A stretch of DNA of 40,838 nucleotides from Acidobacteriota bacterium (GTDB lineage: Bacteria; Acidobacteriota; Terriglobia; Terriglobales; Acidobacteriaceae), in assembly GCA_019243475.1 (NCBI GenBank), contig JAFAUE010000214.1:1-40838 (forward strand), in the 5' to 3' direction. The position numbers and the translations under genes are program-made. Below, piece after piece: positions 11,664 to 23,380 of this stretch. Under the pieces are notes generated by a model, which saw only the letters and a list, made by a program, of their open reading frames with translations, did not search any database and was not told where the DNA came from. Numbering within the stretch: position 1 is the stretch's first letter; each line of letters starts with the position of its first letter.

Positions 11664-14327
11664 TTAAGCGCGCAGAGCCTGTACCGGATTGGTGCGCGTG
11701 GCCCGCCAGGCCGGCACGAAGCAGGCGGCGAGTGCGGCTACTACCATGATTAACGTCGCGATGGCGAATGCCATCGGATCGCGCGGACTGGTCTTATACA
11801 GCAGGTAGCCGAGCAATCGCGACAGCACCACAGCCGCAAAGCCGCCGATCACGACTCCTGCCGTAGTAAGGAGCATGCCCTGTGAAATCACCAAGCGCAG
11901 CAAGTCGGAGGCCCGGGCGCCCAAAGCCATGCGCACTCCAAACTCGCGGGTGCTTTGCGTTACCGCATAGGACATCACACCGTAAAGCCCAACAGCGGCC
12001 AGCACAAGCGCCAGAGCTCCGAATGCGCCGAGCATGTTGACGGCAATCCGCTGCACTGCCGTAGAACGATCTACCTCTTCCCGCATGGTGAGAATTTCGC
12101 CGGGAGCGAGATTGTTATCCAACGCGCGAACCTCTCGCACCAACGCTGTGGATAGGGCAGAGAGCGGCAATGTACTCCGGATATACAAGTTGCTACCAGG
12201 CTGGCTTTGACGGATTGGCACGTAGAAAAACGGTTGCAGCGGTTCTATGAGGCTGCTGTACTTTGCCTGCTTTGCCACGCCGATCACTTGAAGCCAACGG
12301 CCTTTCACCTGAATGCGGCGTCCGATCGGGTCGGCGCCGTGCCAGAACTGCGCGGCCATGGCTTCATTGACGATGGCAACCGGCAGGGTATTTTGATCGT
12401 CCGCGCGAGTGAACTCCCTTCCCGACAAGACTGGGATTCCCATTGTGGTCAGATAGCCGGGACTCACCTCGTTGTAGTCCACAATTGGTTGTTCCCCGGG
12501 AGCGGCTACATACCCGTCCACGGCGATGGGCGAGGATGAATAAACCCCATAGCTAAACGCAGCAATTCGGGAAAACGCGGCCGACTGAATGCCAGGGACG
12601 GCTCGCAATCGATCGGCCAAGTCCTCTTCAAACGTGAGATTCCGGACCTTGTCATACCCGGCAACCCTTGTATCCACCCAGGTGCTGATCACGTCGCGCG
12701 TAGAGAATCCCGGATCGGTACTCTGCAGCGCGTGCAGACTCTTCAACAGCAAGCCCGATCCCACCAACAACATGAAGCTGAGCGCAACCTGAATTAGAAC
12801 CAGACTGGATTGCGCCAGCGCGCGCCGCCTGCCTCCCACAACGCCACCGGACTCGGCTTTTAGCGCCGAGGTCAGGTCAAGCTTCCTGGTATGCATCGCC
12901 GGGACAAGACCGAGCAGTACAGTGGCCAATAGGCAAACCGCTGTGCTCAAAACGAGCACCCGCCAATCAACCGCGCCGGGCAGATACATCGACGTGCCTC
13001 CGCGTCGCGGCTCGAGAAGCACAAGCAGGTTGCGGCACCAGCGCGCAACGAGTAAGCCGCCTGCCGCTGCGATGGTGGAGAGAATTAACCCTTCCGTCAG
13101 GAGTTGCTGTAGCAGTCGCCCGCGACGCGCTCCCAGGGCGAGCCGTACGGTCATTTCATGGCGGCGGCCGAAGGCCTTAACCAGCAGCAGATTGCTGACA
13201 TTTGCACAAACAATGAGGAGCACGAAAACTACTACTCCCAGCGCGATGCTTAGAGTCGGCAGCAAGGCCCCGGCATTGTTGAAAGGCGTTTCCCAGAGTG
13301 GGTAAAGCTTCACGCCGAAGCCGCGATTGGTCTCCGGATACTGGTCTTCCAGGCGCTTGGCTACAGCGGAAATCTCCGCCTGCGCTTGCGCCGCTGTGAC
13401 GCCTGGTTTGCGGCGCACGTAAGCTTCAATCCATCGCGCGCTACGATCCTCGAGCTTGTAGCCTCCGGGAACGAACCGTTCCTGCATCGAGACCGGCACC
13501 CAGAACTGCATCGCCCAGCCAACGAATGTGCCTTCAAATCCCTGGGGTGCTACTCCGACGATCGCGTGCGGCTGCCCGCCGAGCATCTGCGTTTTGCCGA
13601 TGATGTTGGGATCGCCGCGAAAGCGGTCCTGCCAAAGGTGATAGCTGATCACTACAACGGGATGGGCGCTACGTCCATAATCTTCCTCTGGGCGAAACCC
13701 TCGTCCCAAAATAGGACGAATGCCATAGGCATCAAAGTAATTCGACGAAACCAGACTGCCGGTAACCACCTGTGCGCGATCGCCGATGCTGAGAGTTGCG
13801 CCCATGATCTTGTCCACGACAAAGGCGTCGAACAGAGTGCAGTTGCGCTGGAGGTCCAGAAAATCCGGCCAGGATACCCCGTCGCGACCCGAAGTCGAAC
13901 GATTCGTGCCAGTCAATGCCATAAGCCGTTCCTGCCCGCTAACCATGGGGAATGGCCGCAGCAAGATACCTTCAATCCAGCTAAAGACAGCAGCGTTGGC
14001 GCCGATTCCCAAAGTGAGACATAGGATGGCGAGCGCCGAAAATCCCGGGCTCCGGCGCAACATGCGTATTCCGAAATGCAGGTCTTGTATCACGTTCTCG
14101 ATGAAGTTGACGTTACGCATTTCCCGACACTCCTCCTTCACCTGCTGGAATCGCCCCAAACTGTGCAAGGCTGCACTGCGCGCCTTGTCCGACGACATGC
14201 CTTCTTTTATGTATTCGGCGATCTGGAACTGCAAATGGAACTCGAGTTCGTCTTCAAGATCGCGGTCCGCATCCCCTTTGTGGAACAGCGACCGCAAACG
14301 GAGTGGCAATTTGTAAAGGAGACGCAC
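11664..14327 (-). CDS. ADOP-type (acidobacterial duplicated orphan permease) MacB/FtsX-like ABC permease
   Basis: Two MacB-PCD/FtsX modules (FGRRHEMTVRLALGARRGRLLQQLLTEG; QSTREFGVRMALGARASDLLRLVISQG); GTG at 14327 has SD AAGGAA; the ORF is open to 14480 but that overlaps the PadR gene. Confidence 0.9.
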   Translation of the reverse strand: MRLLYKLPLRLRSLFHKGDADRDLEDELEFHLQFQIAEYIKEGMSSDKARSAALHSLGRFQQVKEECREMRNVNFIENVIQDLHFGIRMLRRSPGFSALAILCLTLGIGANAAVFSWIEGILLRPFPMVSGQERLMALTGTNRSTSGRDGVSWPDFLDLQRNCTLFDAFVVDKIMGATLSIGDRAQVVTGSLVSSNYFDAYGIRPILGRGFRPEEDYGRSAHPVVVISYHLWQDRFRGDPNIIGKTQMLGGQPHAIVGVAPQGFEGTFVGWAMQFWVPVSMQERFVPGGYKLEDRSARWIEAYVRRKPGVTAAQAQAEISAVAKRLEDQYPETNRGFGVKLYPLWETPFNNAGALLPTLSIALGVVVFVLLIVCANVSNLLLVKAFGRRHEMTVRLALGARRGRLLQQLLTEGLILSTIAAAGGLLVARWCRNLLVLLEPRRGGTSMYLPGAVDWRVLVLSTAVCLLATVLLGLVPAMHTRKLDLTSALKAESGGVVGGRRRALAQSSLVLIQVALSFMLLVGSGLLLKSLHALQSTDPGFSTRDVISTWVDTRVAGYDKVRNLTFEEDLADRLRAVPGIQSAAFSRIAAFSYGVYSSSPIAVDGYVAAPGEQPIVDYNEVSPGYLTTMGIPVLSGREFTRADDQNTLPVAIVNEAMAAQFWHGADPIGRRIQVKGRWLQVIGVAKQAKYSSLIEPLQPFFYVPIRQSQPGSNLYIRSTLPLSALSTALVREVRALDNNLAPGEILTMREEVDRSTAVQRIAVNMLGAFGALALVLAAVGLYGVMSYAVTQSTREFGVRMALGARASDLLRLVISQGMLLTTAGVVIGGFAAVVLSRLLGYLLYKTSPRDPMAFAIATLIMVVAALAACFVPAWRATRTNPVQALRA

Positions 14328-14344
14328 GTCTTGGGTTCCTTGCG

Positions 14345-14674
14345 TTAGGTGGATTCGAGTACTAGATCGATGGCCCCTGACAGACGGTTCCATTGCGTTT
14401 GCTGCCGGCGAAGATATCGCGCACCATCTCGCGTGAGTGAGTAATATTTCGCGCGGCGATTGTTCTCTGATTCTCCCCATTCCGCTTCAATCCAGCCCTG
14501 CTGCTCGAGTCGGTGCAGCGCTGGATACAACGCACCCTGGTTCACTTGCAGAACTTCTTTTGAAACTTGCCGAATGCGCTGGGCGATGCCCCAGCCGTGC
14601 ATGGGCTGCAGAGCAAGGGTTTTTAAGATCAGCAGATCCAGAGTGCCTTGGACCAAATCCGTTGGTTTCGCCAA
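14345..14674 (-). CDS. PadR family transcriptional regulator
   Basis: 109 aa; LVQGTLDLLILKTLALQPMHGWGIAQRI...LYPALHRLEQQGWIEAEWGESENNRRAKYYSLT. Confidence 0.95.
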   Translation of the reverse strand: MAKPTDLVQGTLDLLILKTLALQPMHGWGIAQRIRQVSKEVLQVNQGALYPALHRLEQQGWIEAEWGESENNRRAKYYSLTRDGARYLRRQQTQWNRLSGAIDLVLEST

Positions 14675-15064: not shown

Positions 15065-15667
15065 TTACTTAAAGCGCTTGTTGATCTCGTCCCAATTGAC
15101 GACATTCCACCAGGCCGTCAGGTACTCCGGCCGGCGATTCTGGTACTTCATATAATAGGCATGCTCCCAGACGTCGTTTCCCATAATGGGATGATGGCCA
15201 TCTATCACTGGATTATCCTGGTTTGCCGTAGAAATCACTTCCAGCTTTCCCGCCTTACTGCGCACCAGCCACACCCAACCGCTGCCAAAGCGCTTGGTTC
15301 CGGCGTCGTTGAACTGCTTTTGAAAATCTTCAAAGCTGCCGAATGCCCGCTTGATCTCGTCCCCGACGCGCCCTGCAGGCGGTCCTCCGCCCTTTGGCTT
15401 CATGATTTGCCAAAACATCGTGTGGTTCATATGTCCGCCTGCGTTGTTACGGACCGCCGTGCGGATGTCCTCCGGAACACTGTTCAGATCGCGGAGCAGA
15501 TCTTCCACGCTCTTATTGGCAAGCTGCGGATGTTTTTCCAGCGCAGCATTCAAATTGTTCACGTATGCGGCGTGATGTTTGTCGTGATGCAAGGTCATCG
15601 TCTGCGAGTCGATATACGGCTCGAGCGCGGAATATTCATAAGGAAGCGGCGGAACTTGATGCGCCAC
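15065..15667 (-). CDS. sodA: Superoxide dismutase (Fe/Mn family)
   Basis: 200 aa; [54 protein letters not shown]. Confidence 0.96.
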
Positions 15668-15795: not shown

Positions 15796-16521
15796 TCACC
15801 GCTGCGGTAGTGCAATGCTTCCAATGTCGGCCAACATCTGCAGGATTCGATCAACTTCGGCTTCACTCAATGCGCACCTTGCGGCAATTTCCCGCGACGT
15901 ACTTATGCCATCAACCGACGCGAACACGTTTGCAGTTAGAGAGTCCAACTCAGCTGCGTAAATCGTTCCATGTTGCGTGCGCGAGAACAGGAGGATGGAT
16001 TGTCCGCGAGAAATTGATTCGAGTTCCGCTTTGCCTCGGATTCGGCTGAGCAGCTCCGAAATTGGAATATCAAAAGCGTGGAGCACAGTCGAAAGCTGCT
16101 TGCGCGGGAAGGCCGCAGCAGGAGCAAACTCCGAGGTGGCCAGTTGCAGAAAGAAAGCTCGTTCGTATTCGAGCAGTTCACTCCACCACGGTTGTGGTTG
16201 AGCGGTGCGCAGTGCTGATACGGCAAATTCTGCAACTAGAGAAGATGTGTTGAAGGAACCGAGAACACATTCCCCAAGAATGGAGTCGAATCCGGGGCTG
16301 TCGATAAGTTGCTCAACTGAGAATTTTGGAATCAGCATTCGCACATATCGAAACCCTCGGCTGAGGCGGTCGCGGTAATAGCGGCGGGCGAGAAAGCGTG
16401 AAAAACGCCGTGCACGGTTGGCCTCCTCAGGGTCAAGGAGGATGATGTCGAAGTTCCGGAGGGAGCCGTCGCTGAGATATCGGATGACCTCATCCTGCAG
16501 ATCGCGGTCAGTGGATGCCAT
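15796..16521 (-). CDS. MNIO partner-type protein (HvfC/TglI/MbnC-like, C-terminal RRE/PqqD-like winged helix)
   Basis: 241 aa, starts 2 nt after the DUF692 stop; FGRxY-like N-terminal helical region, WWSELLEYERAFF like the LxxLARLEWA segment of HvfC partners; C-term LTANVFASVDGISTSREIAARCALSEAEVDRILQMLADIGSI resembles PqqD/RRE. Confidence 0.7.
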   Translation of the reverse strand: MASTDRDLQDEVIRYLSDGSLRNFDIILLDPEEANRARRFSRFLARRYYRDRLSRGFRYVRMLIPKFSVEQLIDSPGFDSILGECVLGSFNTSSLVAEFAVSALRTAQPQPWWSELLEYERAFFLQLATSEFAPAAAFPRKQLSTVLHAFDIPISELLSRIRGKAELESISRGQSILLFSRTQHGTIYAAELDSLTANVFASVDGISTSREIAARCALSEAEVDRILQMLADIGSIALPQR

Positions 16522-16523
16522 TT

Positions 16524-17354
16524 TCAGCTCGCTACGACCACCGCAGATTCGAAAGCCGCCCTGGTGCGGCGCATGCTTTCTTCCAGTTGCTGTGCAGTTA
16601 CAGTGGGGGAGAATACATCCACCGTGACGGCGCGTAGTTTGGGCGCGCGCTCCGCGACCGATTGCGCCAGGCGCAGAATGTCGTCATTCGGCGGTGTTGG
16701 CGCAATCCAGGGCGCATCGAGGTCGCAATCGTATTCGATGCCCGCGACATGAATTTCTACGACTTCCCGCAAAGGGAAATCCTCTATGTATTGGCGTGCA
16801 TCGACGTCGCGCTGGTGGGCGGCCAGCCAAATATGCGGGATGTCGATCAAAAAACCGCATCCGGTTTTGTCGAAGAAGCGGCACAAAAATTCTGCTTCGC
16901 TCATCTGCGCGTGCTTTACAGAGAAGAAGCCCGGAATGTTCTCCATCACCAGCGGCGCTTGAACTGCATCGCGCAGAACCGCCGCGTTTTCACAAAACCG
17001 GCTTAGGAACTCTTCGGTGTACAGGGGAGGAAAGACATAGTCCAGCGAGCGCGCGTGGTCCTGCGTGTGTAGACATTGGAAGTGCTCTGCCACCCACGGT
17101 GAGCGATAGCGCTCCTGGAGCCGGCGGGCGCGATCGAGCGCGAATTTACTCAGGGGATCGGAAAGTTGTCCCAAATAGTCGTGCAGCAGCAGCGGGTATT
17201 GCTGCTGAATGAGAGGAAAGAACTCGTCATCTGCATCTGGAGGATCGGCGATAGCCAAATGATCGATCAGCTCGGGATGCTCAAGCGTGAATGGTGCGAG
17301 ATGAGGATTGTAGAAAGTGCCGATGGAGAGTCGATCTGGAGGGATCGCTGGCAT
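16524..17354 (-). CDS. DUF692 / multinuclear non-heme iron oxygenase (MNIO) family enzyme
   Basis: DRLSIGTFYNPHLAPFTLEHPELIDHLAI...HDYLGQLSDP...RFCENAAVLRDAVQAPLVMENIPGFFS...SEAEFLCRFFDKTGCGFLIDIPHIWLAAH...VEIHVAGIEYD: DUF692 TIM-barrel with metal-ligand His/Glu/Asp motifs (MENIPG, LIDIPH, EIHVAG). ATG 17354 preferred over GTG 17366. Confidence 0.9.
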   Translation of the reverse strand: MPAIPPDRLSIGTFYNPHLAPFTLEHPELIDHLAIADPPDADDEFFPLIQQQYPLLLHDYLGQLSDPLSKFALDRARRLQERYRSPWVAEHFQCLHTQDHARSLDYVFPPLYTEEFLSRFCENAAVLRDAVQAPLVMENIPGFFSVKHAQMSEAEFLCRFFDKTGCGFLIDIPHIWLAAHQRDVDARQYIEDFPLREVVEIHVAGIEYDCDLDAPWIAPTPPNDDILRLAQSVAERAPKLRAVTVDVFSPTVTAQQLEESMRRTRAAFESAVVVAS

Positions 17355-17361
17355 AAGAGAA

Positions 17362-17474
17362 TTCACCGCGGAGGCACGGAGAACAGAAAGAACTTCTTAA
17401 GGATTTGCAGTTTCGCTAGTCGAAGCTAGCGAACTGCGCGCCGCCTTCCGTGCTCTAAGTGGCTCCGCGGTGAA
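17362..17474. repeat. Long palindromic intergenic element (REP/MITE-like hairpin)
   Basis: TTCACCGCGGAG (17362-17373) is the exact reverse complement of CTCCGCGGTGAA (17463-17474); nested GCACGGA/TCCGTGC and TTCGCTAG-tcgaag-CTAGCGAA pairs. Confidence 0.8.
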
Positions 17475-17482
17475 ACTCGGAT

Positions 17483-17623
17483 TCAGTGGCAGGTGGGGGC
17501 GACTTCCGTGCTCTCCACGAGTTTTACGTTGTTGTGGCAGGTCGGGGCCACTTCGGCGGTCTCAACCAGTTTTATGTTCGCGTGACAGGCCGGAGCTACT
17601 TCGCTAATTTCGAGAATCTTCAT
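17483..17623 (-). CDS. Putative RiPP precursor peptide, three 16-aa EVAPxCH repeats
   Basis: 46 aa from ATG 17623 with SD AAGGAG 7 nt upstream: MKILEISEVAPACHANIKLVETAEVAPTCHNNVKLVESTEVAPTCH; directly upstream of and co-directional with the DUF692 gene. Confidence 0.82.
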   Translation of the reverse strand: MKILEISEVAPACHANIKLVETAEVAPTCHNNVKLVESTEVAPTCH

Positions 17624-17788
17624 GCAGTTTCTCCTTTTTGCTAAGACTTCCGACAACGACTTATCTAGATGCCAGGGCCCTAAAACAGGAGGCACAAATT
17701 TTCTCAGATTCCGGAATCGTACGGCAATTCACCTCTCTCGCAGCGGCGCCAACTTCTGCCCCCAGTACAATTCGGGAAAGCTGAGATC

Positions 17789-18733
17789 ATGTCTTTCGGC
17801 ATTGACATATTCGTTCTCTTACGGGAAGAACAGATCCTCAAAGAGCTGCGGAAGGCCTTTGCTGAGCGTTACTTGCCAGAGCACCTGTTCTACTGGCTGC
17901 CCTCATCAATCCAGGCGTGGGTCGCTCTTTGCCGATCGACGGAATACAAGAATGCCAGCCGCGCTAGTGAAGTCCTGCGCCTGGCTGCGCCGGGCATCCG
18001 GCAGCGTTGCGAGGGGGGCACGACGCTCTGTGGTCTGGGTTGCGGAGAGGGCGGTAAAGACCTCGTGTTACTGCAGGAGTTCCATGATGCGGGCCAGCCG
18101 CTGAGATATATTGCCGCCGACTTCAGTCAGGCACTGCTGGAACTCGCGATCGATCAATCCCAGAAGCTAGTCAAGTCCGCTGCGGGTTTGAAGCTCAATG
18201 TCTTCGACGACGAACAGCTGGCGGTGGCAGGACGGCTGGCGCGCGAGGTTGGCGGTTGTGCAATATTTTCCGTTTTGGGAAATACGCTGGGCGCATTTGG
18301 TCCCCAGGCGTTCCCCAGCCGCCTTCGGCAATGCTGTGTCGCGCATGATTGTTTTCTTTTTGACGGCGAAATCTTCAGTGAGACGTCGCTGGCGGGCTAC
18401 GACAATCCAACGAACCGACGCTTCGCATGGGGCCCGCTGACCGGAGTGGGAATCACTGAAGAGGATGGCCGGCTGGAGTTCTCAACCGAAGCGCTGGATG
18501 ATGGACTCTTCGGCGTGTCCAAGCATTTTGTTGCCGGGCGCAATTTGCGAATCAACGTCGGCGGCGAATGGATTGACATTCGACGAGGCGAGACGCTGCG
18601 CATGAGCAATTCGATCAAGTATCGGAATGAGGCGACACTCCTCGGTTTCGTCGAACGAGCCGGGTTCAAGATTGAAATGAAATGGACGAGCTCTGATAAC
18701 CAATTTGTGCTTGCCTTCGCTAAGCCAAGCTAG
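17789..18733 (+). CDS. EgtD-like SAM-dependent methyltransferase (Methyltransf_33 superfamily)
   Basis: 314 aa; LCGLGCGEGGKDLVLL, YIAADFSQALLELA, FSVLGNTLGAFGP (cf. EgtD LGSTIGNF), RRGETLRMSNSIKY...FVERAGFKIEMKWTSSDNQFVLAFA. Confidence 0.75.
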   Translation: MSFGIDIFVLLREEQILKELRKAFAERYLPEHLFYWLPSSIQAWVALCRSTEYKNASRASEVLRLAAPGIRQRCEGGTTLCGLGCGEGGKDLVLLQEFHDAGQPLRYIAADFSQALLELAIDQSQKLVKSAAGLKLNVFDDEQLAVAGRLAREVGGCAIFSVLGNTLGAFGPQAFPSRLRQCCVAHDCFLFDGEIFSETSLAGYDNPTNRRFAWGPLTGVGITEEDGRLEFSTEALDDGLFGVSKHFVAGRNLRINVGGEWIDIRRGETLRMSNSIKYRNEATLLGFVERAGFKIEMKWTSSDNQFVLAFAKPS

Positions 18734-18834: not shown

Positions 18835-21033
18835 TTACTCTCCGCCGAACCGGAAGCGCAGGCCTGCACGGAAGTTTGCCTTCAGCGCAGGGAATCCCGC
18901 AGCTTCCTCATAGCGCTTGTTCAGCAGGTTCTCGACAGAGACAAACGCCGTGACGTGCCGCTGCAATTCATACCAGCCGCTGACGTCGGCACGGACGTAC
19001 CCGGCGGCGTGATCTACATGCGGTGTGAGGCCGAGAAAATCTGAATCCGTACGCCGCCCAATGCCGACAGCGCTCAAGTTTGCGCCCCAACGTGTGCTGA
19101 GGTAATTCACGGTTGCAGAGCCTGCGTGCTTAGGACGACGCAGCAAGGGCTGTCCTGCCGCCACAAGTGGGTCCGTCGCTAAGGGTGATTGCAGGATTTG
19201 ACTTGAGGTATACGTGTACGCGGCGTCGAGGCTGACGCGGTTCGCGGGCCGACCGTGAAATTCGATCTCAGCGCCGTGAGCTAATGAACGGTTGAGGTTG
19301 ATGAACTGAGAAATAAAAGTGGTTGGATCGAAGGTAGAGGTAATTTGGTCGCGGAAGAGGTTGTGATAGTAAGTTCCAGATAATGAATACCGATCTTTCA
19401 GAAAATTCTGGACGAACCCGGTTTCAATCGTCTGATTCCGCTCCGGCCTCAGCTTCGGATTGGGAATAATAAAGAACGACGCGGTGCCGAAACTCTCGTC
19501 CAGACTTGGCTCCTTGATGCCTTGTCCGTACGCGACGCGCAACCGCGTTGCTCCGACCTTCGCGCTTCCGCGGTGCGCCAAAAATGTGAGCGCCGCTCGA
19601 GGTACGCCCGTGTTTCCAAAGCTCTCGTTATGCACAAAGCGTCCGCCCGCTACCAATGTCAAGCGTGAGAAGGACAACACCTGCTCCGCGTAGAGCGCAT
19701 GGTTACGCCGAAGCCCATGTGTCAGCGGCAGGGCAGTCAGGTCTCCGATGAAGCCGTTTTCGTCTTCGAACTCGTAGCCGAAATTGGTGCGTGCCCATAG
19801 TCGCGGATCGTACTCGCCGTGATACATAAACCCGGCGCGGTTCAAGTCTGCATAACTATCGAAGGGAAAATCGAAATTACCGAAGGCCGGAGATTCGCGC
19901 CCGGGATCCATAAAATTGTCCAGGTTCTCGCGCACGTGGTGATACTCGTACCCGCTAAAGCTGTGGTTCCACTGGCTGCCCGTCTGAACCAACAGATCGC
20001 CACTGGCAAGAAAGTTGTTCTGCCGCGCCCGCTGATCGCTGTCTGGCGGGATCAGTTCCTGACCGTTGAAGTTGAAGAACGATTGCACGCCGCTGCGCTC
20101 AGTCGTGTGGCGCGTGCGAAAACGAAGGGCGACGCGGGAAGCGAGTTTCATGCCGATGTTCGCGCCTTCAGACGAATTCGAATAGGCATCATTGATGCCT
20201 TGGCCAAGCGAATTGAATTGCTCAGCAAACAGGTTGTAGTCGATGCGGCCAACGGCTCCCGCTACAGAGGCAGACCCGTCCGCCGTCGAGAATGTTCCAC
20301 CGTAAGAGGAGAGCGTTAACTCCGGAGTGCGCGTGGTGCCGGTGGCGCTGAACAACTGCACGACGCTGGTGAGCGCGTCAGAGCCGTACAGCACGCTCTC
20401 GGGGCCGCGGACAAATTCGAAGCGATCCCCGCCAATGGTCGGTACAACGCCGAAATCAAAAATCCCTCCGGGTTCATTTACCGGCACACCATCGACGATC
20501 ACCTTGTTGTAATCGGAGTCGCCTCCGCGGACGAAGAGTGACGCCAGGCCGCCGCGGCGTCCGTCAGTGTTGATTACCGCTCCGGCGAGATAACGAATGG
20601 CATCTGCCGCATCGACTGGTTGGCGATTGAGAAGGGTGCCGCGATCAACGGTTTCCACCGGTGCGCCGGTTTCATCGGCAGGAAGAGGAGTTTCCGTCGC
20701 GGTGACCACCACCGTTTCATTTCGGACTGCCACCTTTAGTTGGACATTTAAGTCCGCATTGCTCTGCTCACCGGTTTCCACGATCTTCTCGGCAAATCCC
20801 GGAGCCAGCACCTGTACGCGCCATGGTCCCGGTTGCAAAATGGGAAAGACGGCGGTTCCCGCCGCGCTGGTGTTTGCCGAGCCAACATTGGCGTTGTTCG
20901 ACAGACGATAGATGCGCACGCTAGCGCCCGCAACCGCGCTACCCGTGGCATCGGAAACATGAACGGTGAAGTCAGTTGCCGTCGCCAGAAGCGGCGAGGC
21001 GATTAGGAGCAAGAGACGAAAGCAATTCCGCAC
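18835..21033 (-). CDS. TonB-dependent outer-membrane receptor (BtuB-like, predicted cobalamin uptake)
   Basis: N-terminal carboxypeptidase-regulatory-like domain, plug (DAADAIRYLAGAVINTDGRRGGLASLFVRGGDSDYNKVIVDGVPVNEPGG), beta-barrel ending in ...GLRFRFGGE; preceded by a cobalamin riboswitch; GTG 21033 has SD AGGAGG. Confidence 0.92.
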   Translation of the reverse strand: MRNCFRLLLLIASPLLATATDFTVHVSDATGSAVAGASVRIYRLSNNANVGSANTSAAGTAVFPILQPGPWRVQVLAPGFAEKIVETGEQSNADLNVQLKVAVRNETVVVTATETPLPADETGAPVETVDRGTLLNRQPVDAADAIRYLAGAVINTDGRRGGLASLFVRGGDSDYNKVIVDGVPVNEPGGIFDFGVVPTIGGDRFEFVRGPESVLYGSDALTSVVQLFSATGTTRTPELTLSSYGGTFSTADGSASVAGAVGRIDYNLFAEQFNSLGQGINDAYSNSSEGANIGMKLASRVALRFRTRHTTERSGVQSFFNFNGQELIPPDSDQRARQNNFLASGDLLVQTGSQWNHSFSGYEYHHVRENLDNFMDPGRESPAFGNFDFPFDSYADLNRAGFMYHGEYDPRLWARTNFGYEFEDENGFIGDLTALPLTHGLRRNHALYAEQVLSFSRLTLVAGGRFVHNESFGNTGVPRAALTFLAHRGSAKVGATRLRVAYGQGIKEPSLDESFGTASFFIIPNPKLRPERNQTIETGFVQNFLKDRYSLSGTYYHNLFRDQITSTFDPTTFISQFINLNRSLAHGAEIEFHGRPANRVSLDAAYTYTSSQILQSPLATDPLVAAGQPLLRRPKHAGSATVNYLSTRWGANLSAVGIGRRTDSDFLGLTPHVDHAAGYVRADVSGWYELQRHVTAFVSVENLLNKRYEEAAGFPALKANFRAGLRFRFGGE

Positions 21034-21067
21034 GGCAATCCTCCTGGGCACGCGAGTGGGATTGGGT

Positions 21068-21429: not shown

Positions 21430-22674
21430 TTACTGTTCCCAACGGCGGAAGATCAGCGACCCATTCGTTCCGCCGAACCCGAAAGAGTTTGAGAGTGCGA
21501 TGTTGACGCGAGCCTTGCGCGACCGGTTAGGGACGTAGTCCAGGTCGCATTCCGGATCGGGATTGTCCAGGTTAATGGTAGGCGGCAGATTCTGATCGCG
21601 CAGTGCCAAAACGGTAATCCCTGCTTCGAGCCCACCGGCCCCGCCCAGCAGATGGCCGGTCATCGACTTCGTGGAGCTCACTGCTAAGCCATTCTTTGCG
21701 TGCTCGCCAAACGCGCGCTTTATTGCTTTGGTTTCGAGCACATCGCCCAGCGGCGTCGAAGTGCCATGGACGTTGATGTAATCCACCTGCTCGGCTGTAA
21801 TATTCGCGTCTTTGAGGGCATTCACCATGACGCGATATCCGCCTTCGCCTTCTTCCGCGGGCTGGGTAATGTGATAAGCGTCAGCACTCATTCCATAGCC
21901 GATGATCTCCGCCATAATCGGAGCTCCGCGGCGTCGGGCGAATTCCAGCTCTTCCAGGATCAAAATGCCCGCGCCTTCGCCGATCACGAAGCCGTCGCGG
22001 TCCTTATCGAATGGCCGACTTGCCTTTTCGGGATCGCCGTTGCGCGTTGAGAGCGCGCGCATGGCGGCGAAACCGCCTACTCCCATCGGCGTGACTGCTG
22101 CCTCGCTTCCGCCGGCAATCATCACGTCGGCAGCGCAGCGTTGGATAATTTTGTACGCGTCGCCAATCGAGTGTGCGCTTGTGGTGCAGGCCGTAGCTGT
22201 AGCTTCGTTCGGCCCTTTGGCGTCGTAGCGGATGCTCACGTGTCCGGCGGCGAGATTAATGATGGCCGCGGGAATAAAGAAGGGAGATATCTTGCGCGGG
22301 CCGCCATTGATCAGATTCGAATGCTCCCGCTCGATGACGTCGAATCCGCCGATGCCGGAGCCGATGTGCACGCCTACGCGCTCCGAGATCTCCGGCGTGA
22401 TGTTCAAGCCGGACATCCTGATGGCTTCATCGGTGGCCCCCATGCAGAGATGAATGAAGCGGGCCATCTTCTTAACTTCTTTTTTCTCGATGAAGTTCAG
22501 AGGATCGAAGTTCTTCACTTCGGCGGCGATGGTGCACGCAAATCCGGTTGTGTCGAAGCCGGTGATGGTGGCAACGCCGCTCTTGCCGGCGAGCACGTTC
22601 GACCAGACTTCCGCACTGGTGTTGCCCACACCGCAAATCAGGCCCAGGCCAGTGACGACAACTCGACGGCTCAA
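21430..22674 (-). CDS. fabF: Beta-ketoacyl-ACP synthase II
   Basis: 414 aa; MSRRVVVTGLGLICGVGNTSAEVW; active site TACTTSAHSIGDA; NVHGTSTPLGDVLE; STKSMTGHLLGGAGG. Confidence 0.97.
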   Translation of the reverse strand: MSRRVVVTGLGLICGVGNTSAEVWSNVLAGKSGVATITGFDTTGFACTIAAEVKNFDPLNFIEKKEVKKMARFIHLCMGATDEAIRMSGLNITPEISERVGVHIGSGIGGFDVIEREHSNLINGGPRKISPFFIPAAIINLAAGHVSIRYDAKGPNEATATACTTSAHSIGDAYKIIQRCAADVMIAGGSEAAVTPMGVGGFAAMRALSTRNGDPEKASRPFDKDRDGFVIGEGAGILILEELEFARRRGAPIMAEIIGYGMSADAYHITQPAEEGEGGYRVMVNALKDANITAEQVDYINVHGTSTPLGDVLETKAIKRAFGEHAKNGLAVSSTKSMTGHLLGGAGGLEAGITVLALRDQNLPPTINLDNPDPECDLDYVPNRSRKARVNIALSNSFGFGGTNGSLIFRRWEQ

Positions 22675-22677
22675 AGC

Positions 22678-22923
22678 TTACTTGCCGCCTTTCGCGTGCG
22701 CGTTGATGTAATCGATGGCGTTCTTCACCGTTTTGATCTTTTCGGCTTCCTCATCGGGGATCTCGATGTCGAAAGCTTCTTCAAATGCCATTACTAATTC
22801 CACGGTGTCGAGCGAGTCGGCCCCGAGGTCGTCAACGAACGACGCATTGGGCGTGACTTCGCCTTCATCGACTCCAAGTTGCTCTACGATGATCTGCTTT
22901 ACCTTCTCGTCCACTGCGGCCAT
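22678..22923 (-). CDS. acpP: Acyl carrier protein (copy 1)
   Basis: 81 aa; [35 protein letters not shown]. Confidence 0.96.
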
Positions 22924-23028: not shown

Positions 23029-23277
23029 CTATTGCTTGGCGATCTTGGAATTCTTTTCGATGTAGCTGACAGCGTCCTGGACAGTCTTTATTTTCTCGGC
23101 TTCTTCATCGGGGATTTCGAGGTCAAAGGCCTCTTCGAAGGCCATGATGAGTTCCACGCGATCGAGCGAGTCGGCGCCGAGATCGTCGACAAAAGAGGCA
23201 GTGGGTGTGACTTCGCTCTCCTCTACGCTGAGCTGGTCCACAATGATCTGTTTGACCTTGTCTTCGATCCCCGGCAT
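23029..23277 (-). CDS. Acyl carrier protein (copy 2)
   Basis: [63 protein letters not shown]...; SD GGAGGAG before ATG 23277. Confidence 0.95.
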
Positions 23278-23380
23278 CGAAACTCCTCCTGTCTGTGCGA
23301 GATGCACAGTACAAACTCCTCAGTCTAAATGGCGGTAGGAAAAGCTGGCAAGAAGGGAGCCGTAAGCTGGGGGCGCGCCC

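Follow-up and report, generated by a model that had tools for sequence, protein, structure and literature searches.

A conserved MNIO locus with a Cys-His repeat peptide and an EgtD-fold methyltransferase, and its predicted selenocysteine forms

What a very short peptide of repeated Cys-His units may be made into is the question raised by a locus of an Acidobacteriota bacterium (Terriglobales; Acidobacteriaceae). The locus lies in contig JAFAUE010000214.1 of assembly GCA_019243475.1, whose 40,838 nucleotides are here called the window, and contains genes for the peptide, for a multinuclear non-heme iron-dependent oxidative (MNIO) enzyme of the DUF692 family, for a partner protein and for a methyltransferase. 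It can be assigned with high confidence to the MNIO-type systems for ribosomally synthesized and post-translationally modified peptides (RiPPs). The more important part was missed in the original prediction made from the sequence of the window, and consists of selenocysteine-type precursors in two lineages, an invariant His after the Cys and a betaine-type ATP-binding cassette (ABC) transporter. The features of the locus are as follows, RRE standing for RiPP recognition element and SAM for S-adenosylmethionine.

17483-17623, minus strand: precursor peptide gene, 46 aa (MKILEISEVAPACHANIKLVETAEVAPTCHNNVKLVESTEVAPTCH), with ATG at 17623 and stop codon at 17483-17485
17582-17587, 17534-17539 and 17486-17491, minus strand: Cys-His codons of the precursor, the last pair being the C-terminus
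17631-17635, minus strand: Shine-Dalgarno sequence AGGAG of the precursor
16524-17366, minus strand: MNIO (DUF692) enzyme, PF05114, 280 aa from GTG at 17366 or 276 aa from the in-frame ATG at 17354
15796-16521, minus strand: MNIO partner protein, 241 aa, beginning 2 nt past the MNIO stop codon, with an N-terminal helical and a C-terminal winged-helix/RRE-like domain
17789-18733, plus strand: EgtD-fold SAM methyltransferase, 314 aa, PF10017, divergent from the precursor
17624-17788, no strand: intergenic region of 165 nt from precursor start to methyltransferase start, from the gene coordinates
15065-15667, minus strand: Mn/Fe superoxide dismutase (Pfam), downstream of the partner and on the same strand

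Precursor family, enzyme and partner

The gene order, the strands, the 2-nt gap, the divergent methyltransferase and an intergenic region of about 165 nt had been described before, and the coordinates place all of them where claimed; predicted divergent promoters should lie in 17624-17788. The precursor consists of three 16-residue repeats, each with EVAP(A/T)CH. It gave no real match in Pfam or NCBIfam, the weak ones obtained (PRA-CH, MoaC) being set aside as chance, and its motif is also absent from the MNIO groups described in the main text of PMC12452194, in agreement with the novelty supposed for it. The window's genome holds a single PF05114 locus and a single PF10017 locus, both of them here.

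Relatives were sought in 85,462 GTDB species genomes with an alignment of four MNIO sequences. The scan gave 43 MNIO loci, of 45-85% identity, in Acidobacteriota, Gemmatimonadota, Nitrospirota, Planctomycetota and Rokubacteria. The family is widespread and apparently undescribed. A short precursor gene was found upstream of the MNIO and on the same strand in 41 of the 43 loci, the partner in 39 and the methyltransferase in 37; the two loci without precursor were L037 and L044, the contig of the latter beginning close to the MNIO. The original prediction of a complete RiPP pathway is thus supported: the peptide frame is conserved in relatives, and related DUF692 loci do carry the peptide gene. 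Among 396 genomes sampled from the phylum of the window, only three close MNIOs were found, of about 50% identity; these loci were first read as peptide-less, wrongly, as all three have precursors with an in-frame TGA (TGA-type).

The core common to all precursors is E(L/V)xP(T/S)-Cys-His, present in 1-4 copies, and His followed Cys in 55/55 independent motif matches obtained with a search that did not demand it. Examples are MKIIEISEVAPTCHSNVKLVETAEVAPTCHNSVKLVESTEVAPTCH (Acidobacteriales), MQIVETQELVPSCHRPEIVETAELVPTCHS (Gemmatimonadota) and METKAINLEVVETEELQPTCHQLDIVDLEELVPTCHQ (Nitrospirota). The family precursors are 18-65 aa long, which leaves no room for a signal peptide plus core, and almost all of them begin with ATG, preceded by a strong, conserved Shine-Dalgarno sequence. 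To judge from these comparisons, the precursor frame of the window is not a chance one, since relatives share this frame, its three 16-residue repeats and each of the three neighbouring genes.

Concerning the enzyme, its DUF692 identity is borne out by the match to PF05114 (104.8 bits, E = 6e-30, above the cut-off). The nearest NCBIfam models, ApyH (108 bits, cut-off 400) and BufB (102 bits), scored far below their cut-offs, and a search of the PDB with the MNIO profile gave TglH as the first match. His61, Glu141, Asp174, His177, His205 and others were invariant in 24 MNIO sequences; we take these to be the metal-binding residues of a predicted iron site. As to its start, ATG at 17354 is likelier than GTG at 17366, because the latter is covered by a palindromic repeat (17363-17381). 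This repeat, CTCCGTGCCTCCGCGGTGA, is a dispersed element with 22 copies in the genome at up to 2 mismatches, and 0 for the reversed control.

The AlphaFold2 model of the partner (predicted local distance difference test, pLDDT, 93.6) gave TglI of TglHI as the best Foldseek match (E 1e-6), followed by NGO1945 (3dee). No Pfam match and no DUF2063 signature were obtained, and the sole NCBIfam match was a weak one to ApyI (6e-6; 25.7 bits against a cut-off of 200). Its role as MNIO partner, with a TglI-like fold, is therefore supported, while the search for an HvfC-type protein yielded no DUF2063 match in Pfam. With the TglI/NGO1945 fold and without DUF2063, it falls into the PME-type 2 group as defined in the main text of PMC12452194. 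By its sequences, the family can then be described as a predicted, conserved RiPP-type system composed of a short, leader-poor precursor, an MNIO and a TglI-like partner with an RRE-like domain, joined in most lineages by an EgtD-fold methyltransferase and in three phyla by a betaine-type ABC importer.

Precursors with TGA at the Cys codon

Twelve loci have a single-core precursor frame with an in-frame TGA at the Cys codon, always followed by CAC-stop or by CAC-AAC/AAT-stop. The peptides read MEDDKKVIDLLPEEALVERESLVPTUH (L048), MDDLEVLVVETESLVPTUH (L051) and MPEIVLVDAVELVPTUHN (L047), for example; they are 18-28 residues long and end at Cys/Sec-His or one residue past it. They occur in relatives from acidobacterial group 13 and in Planctomycetota/Rokubacteria. 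In a blind test, two further Rokubacteria genomes, found later by the MNIO profile, both showed VVPT-TGA-CAC-AAY-stop at the predicted place. A UGA that takes the place of Cys at a conserved functional site is the usual hallmark of a selenoprotein. When Cys or Sec is mapped on the MNIO tree, at least two changes are required, two being imposed by well-supported branches.

A hairpin of at least 6 pairs, with GU in a 3-5-nt loop and starting 18-25 nt after the TGA, was present at 12/12 TGA loci, as compared with 147/2531 TGAs in the same loci (5.8%) and 2/49 Cys sites. This definition was formulated after the hairpins had been seen, so the 12/12 is partly fitted to it; the background rates are not. 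The stems differ in sequence between the two TGA lineages, some pairs being exchanged with the pairing kept, as seen in a hand-anchored comparison which replaced a MAFFT alignment that had misaligned the lineages. The distances from the TGA fit the 16-37 nt published between UGA and the selenocysteine insertion sequence (SECIS; PMC13188914).

The genomes were also inspected for selenocysteine decoding. A tRNA-Sec of at least 70 bits was found in 11 of the 12 TGA genomes and in both blind-test genomes, the twelfth having SelB at 371 bits, and SelA was present in 9/9 TGA-type genomes sampled. Most Cys-type genomes decode selenocysteine too. The window's own has SelA and SelB; tRNA-Sec was not found in its assembly, which is 88% complete. 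The Cys-type genomes of Nitrospirota had no SelB above cut-off and no tRNA-Sec, and no SelA in the two tested.

All this has to be set against a rival reading, that the TGA is an ordinary stop, the peptide ending at ...LVPT and the CAC-stop being a relic, with no selenium involved. In its favour, the generic rules for a bacterial SECIS, which concern loop size, a G in the loop, spacing and energy, do not separate the TGA sites from a GC-rich background, since they are passed by 11/12 TGA sites, 39/49 Cys sites and 89/180 random TGAs, and minimum-free-energy z-scores downstream of the TGAs were mostly unremarkable. Furthermore, most of the hairpins lie past the stop codon, while bacterial SECIS elements are normally inside the coding sequence (PMC13188914), and the case for selenocysteine is built from sequence. 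Yet 14/14 loci keep CAC and a stop in the Cys frame, which would not be maintained after a true stop, the hairpin stands at 12/12 against the 5.8% background, and selenocysteine-decoding genes are present in all 14 TGA genomes and lacking in the Cys-only Nitrospirota. With two independent Cys/Sec exchanges on the tree in addition, an ordinary stop seems very improbable. In all likelihood the TGA forms encode selenocysteine, at a UGA served by a predicted SECIS-like hairpin just after the true stop codon, and they are probably selenocysteine RiPP precursors.

Methyltransferase, transporter and possible product

The methyltransferase matched PF10017 (E = 1.4e-19), and its AlphaFold2 model (pLDDT 95.6) retrieved EgtD proteins as all of the top 15 Foldseek matches, with template-modelling scores of about 0.8 over the whole length, so the earlier description of the enzyme as EgtD-like proved right. 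In EgtD, Tyr56, Tyr206 and Ser284 bind the carboxylate of the ligand and Asn166 its alpha-amine (PMC8593015). The carboxylate ligands are kept in 38/38 (Tyr56), 37/38 (Tyr206) and 37/38 (Ser284) methyltransferase sequences of the family. Asn166 is replaced by Ala, Ile, Gly or Val; on the imidazole side of EgtD, Glu282 is replaced by Asn or Ser and Thr213 mostly by Arg. The replacement of Asn166 and Glu282 rules out a true EgtD, and as the ligand set is only in part kept, the enzyme is better described as EgtD-like in fold, probably with a carboxylate pocket, and of altered specificity. Several Rokubacteria loci (L053, L063-L069) have a selenocysteine-type precursor, an MNIO and a partner, with no methyltransferase of this family in the genome; the methyltransferase is therefore not obligatory.

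The methyltransferase adjoins the ATPase of an ABC transporter in 24 loci, which belong to Gemmatimonadota, Nitrospirota and Acidobacteriota group 13, and a permease and an OpuAC substrate-binding protein usually come next; in L046 a single run comprises methyltransferase, ATPase, permease, substrate-binding protein, precursor, MNIO and partner. The importer was considered as a possible EgtU, for which the sequence ranking given below offered no support. A canonical EgtB above cut-off was absent in 32/33 genomes. The exception, G408 (the genome of L020), carries EgtB (470 bits) and a true EgtD (354 bits) elsewhere in addition to its MNIO cluster, so that one genome can harbour the two routes together. 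The superoxide dismutase follows the partner in four Acidobacteriales loci (window, L020, L021, L059) and is absent from the other phyla; in the window's lineage it is possibly part of the operon. No TglB-like ligase, P450 or radical SAM enzyme was found among the recurrent neighbours.

A thio- or seleno-histidine betaine is considered here on account of the invariant His, of the EgtD-like pocket and the betaine importer, of the absence of EgtB and, in one lineage, of the superoxide dismutase. The acidic VExxEL unit, repeated with each core, would be the recognition element for the RRE-like domain of the partner, which would bring the thiolate of Cys, or the selenolate of Sec, to the iron centre of the MNIO. 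There the Cys/Sec beside the invariant His would be oxidised with O2, and the side chain of that His would receive the sulfur or selenium, in a reaction comparable to those of EgtB/OvoA and SenA on small molecules. The modified His unit might then be cut out of a disposable peptide, in the way that 3-thiaglutamate is built on TglA, be methylated by the EgtD-fold enzyme through binding of the free carboxylate in its pocket, and be recovered by the betaine importer as an ergothioneine- or selenoneine-like antioxidant. From a Cys precursor, every repeat would yield one unit, which would explain why cores are multiplied where no UGA is needed. This ribosomal route to an ergothioneine/selenoneine-like betaine is, as a whole, the best explanation that can be offered, tentatively and at somewhat less than an even chance. 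Taken by parts, a released betaine-type thio/seleno-histidine as the product is possible, with the doubts prevailing, and it is somewhat unlikely that the MNIO moves sulfur or selenium from the encoded Cys/Sec to the adjacent His, without EgtB or SenA and with Sec as a building block instead of a catalytic residue.

Several observations speak against such a route. We know of no MNIO that attacks His. With Asn166, Glu282 and Thr213 lost, N-alpha trimethylation of His is not assured, and four Rokubacteria with selenocysteine-type precursors have no methyltransferase either near the MNIO or genome-wide. The binding protein of the importer scores higher against choline/betaine proteins (204 bits) than against EgtUC, the ergothioneine protein (149 bits), and the lineage of the window has no such importer near the locus. 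Neither a peptidase nor a C-S lyase was identified. Finally, the synthetic selenocysteine form of TglA inhibits TglHI (PMC9016710).

Two other products have to be weighed. In one, the MNIO would cyclise Cys/Sec with the preceding residue to an on-peptide thiooxazole (selenooxazole in the TGA forms), the methyltransferase would cap S or Se, and the peptide itself would act, for instance as a copper ligand with the neighbouring His. All MNIO-PME1 clusters that have been characterised yield 5-thiooxazole (PMC12668002), SbtM, which is a radical SAM enzyme, forms a thio(seleno)oxazole from the Cys/Sec of a selenobacteriocin RiPP (Lewis 2021, in the account of PMC13188914), and the repeated Cys cores resemble the logic of bufferins. 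However, the partner is TglI-like and not DUF2063, a signal peptide is missing, unlike in most bufferins, and the invariant His, the carboxylate pocket of the EgtD-fold methyltransferase and the betaine importer are left unexplained, which makes this product unlikely. Simple metal binding, raised in the original prediction from the Cys-His pairs, is possible, though the neighbours suggest otherwise.

The other product would follow from Pearlin-like chemistry, in which the MNIO removes or rearranges the beta-carbon of the Cys/Sec close to the C-terminus, yielding a small modified amino acid that would be set free and methylated. Enzyme and partner have their best sequence/fold matches in TglH and TglI, the end of the precursor, LEVVETEELQPTCH, resembles by eye that of the TglA substrate, DIEVIESKVFAC (PMC9016710), and the TGA precursors end at, or next to, Cys/Sec-His. 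This chemistry has no role for the invariant His, however, and it fits badly with the lack of a TglB-like ligase, with the recurrence of Cys-His within the peptide in the Cys forms and with the inhibition of TglHI by a selenocysteine substrate (PMC9016710), so that it appears quite unlikely.

As for the remaining surroundings, precursor and MNIO are separated by an aldo/keto reductase in the Gemmatimonadota loci (L026-L043, L062; e.g. L027:4874-5986), where it may serve as an additional tailoring enzyme. In the window, a TonB-dependent receptor with a carboxypeptidase-regulatory domain (18835-21051, minus strand) converges on the methyltransferase, and is also found at the edge of L020. Farther away, two tandem acyl carrier protein genes (22678-22923 and 23029-23307, minus strand), recognised from their translations, lie upstream of a ketosynthase (21430-22674, minus strand) among otherwise ordinary fatty-acid genes. 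At 11664-14674 (minus strand) the translations indicate a PadR-type regulator followed by a 938-aa MacB/FtsX-type permease.

Significance and relation to described systems

To our knowledge, selenocysteine is found almost only as an active-site residue. If the reading of the TGA forms is true, genetically encoded selenium would be the substrate of an iron oxygenase, in precursors of 18-28 residues spread over at least three phyla, and these would represent a very short kind of selenoprotein, called truncated open reading frames or missed by annotation pipelines. They would also offer a way to test whether bacteria lacking EgtB make ergothioneine/selenoneine-like compounds ribosomally. Cys forms such as that of the window would be an easy entry to the chemistry in E. 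coli before work with selenium.

MNIO RiPPs are already known as a kind. A system joining MNIO and selenocysteine, EgtD and a RiPP, or ergothioneine and a RiPP was not found in the open-licence literature, where absence is not proof. The 119 prokaryotic selenoprotein families given in PMC13188914 contain a single RiPP, the selenobacteriocin modified by SbtM, a radical SAM enzyme, and no MNIO substrate. Given that synthetic selenocysteine TglA inhibits TglHI, a natural selenocysteine substrate of an MNIO would be new. In the selenobacteriocin system (SbtA/SbtM, TIGR04081; Lewis et al. 2021, as presented in PMC13188914), a RiPP precursor likewise encodes Cys or Sec at the modified site, with a radical SAM maturase and an SGUG motif there, and an MNIO and a PTUH motif here.

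With ergothioneine and selenoneine synthesis (EgtD/EgtB, SenA) the family shares an EgtD-fold methyltransferase, the combination of S or Se of Cys/Sec with His and a betaine-type importer, which is of the OpuC-like family that also includes EgtU but is not closest to EgtU itself. The differences are a ribosomal peptide and an MNIO in place of EgtB/SenA, the near absence of EgtB from the genomes and a methyltransferase without Asn166 and Glu282. The bufferins and captophorins (BufA/BufB/BufC, HvfABC, fontiphorin) resemble the family in that an MNIO acts, here by prediction, on the repeated Cys of a small peptide; they differ by their Sec signal peptide, DUF2063 partner and DoxX, and by motifs such as the bufferin-type EGKCG. 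Aminopyruvatide (ApyA/ApyHI) is near in that the MNIO finds its best NCBIfam match in ApyH and the partner its only one in ApyI, at scores well short of the 400 and 200 bits required for equivalogs; its target is a C-terminal Asp, whereas here it would be Cys/Sec-His, and its P450 and radical SAM enzyme do not recur as neighbours. Pearlin/3-thiaglutamate (TglA, TglHI) has in common with the present family the MNIO with a TglI-like partner and a short acidic precursor with the target Cys near the C-terminus. Unlike that system, the one described here has an encoded Cys, with no need of the TglB ligase, an invariant His next to it, up to four cores, an EgtD-fold methyltransferase and, as predicted, selenocysteine forms.

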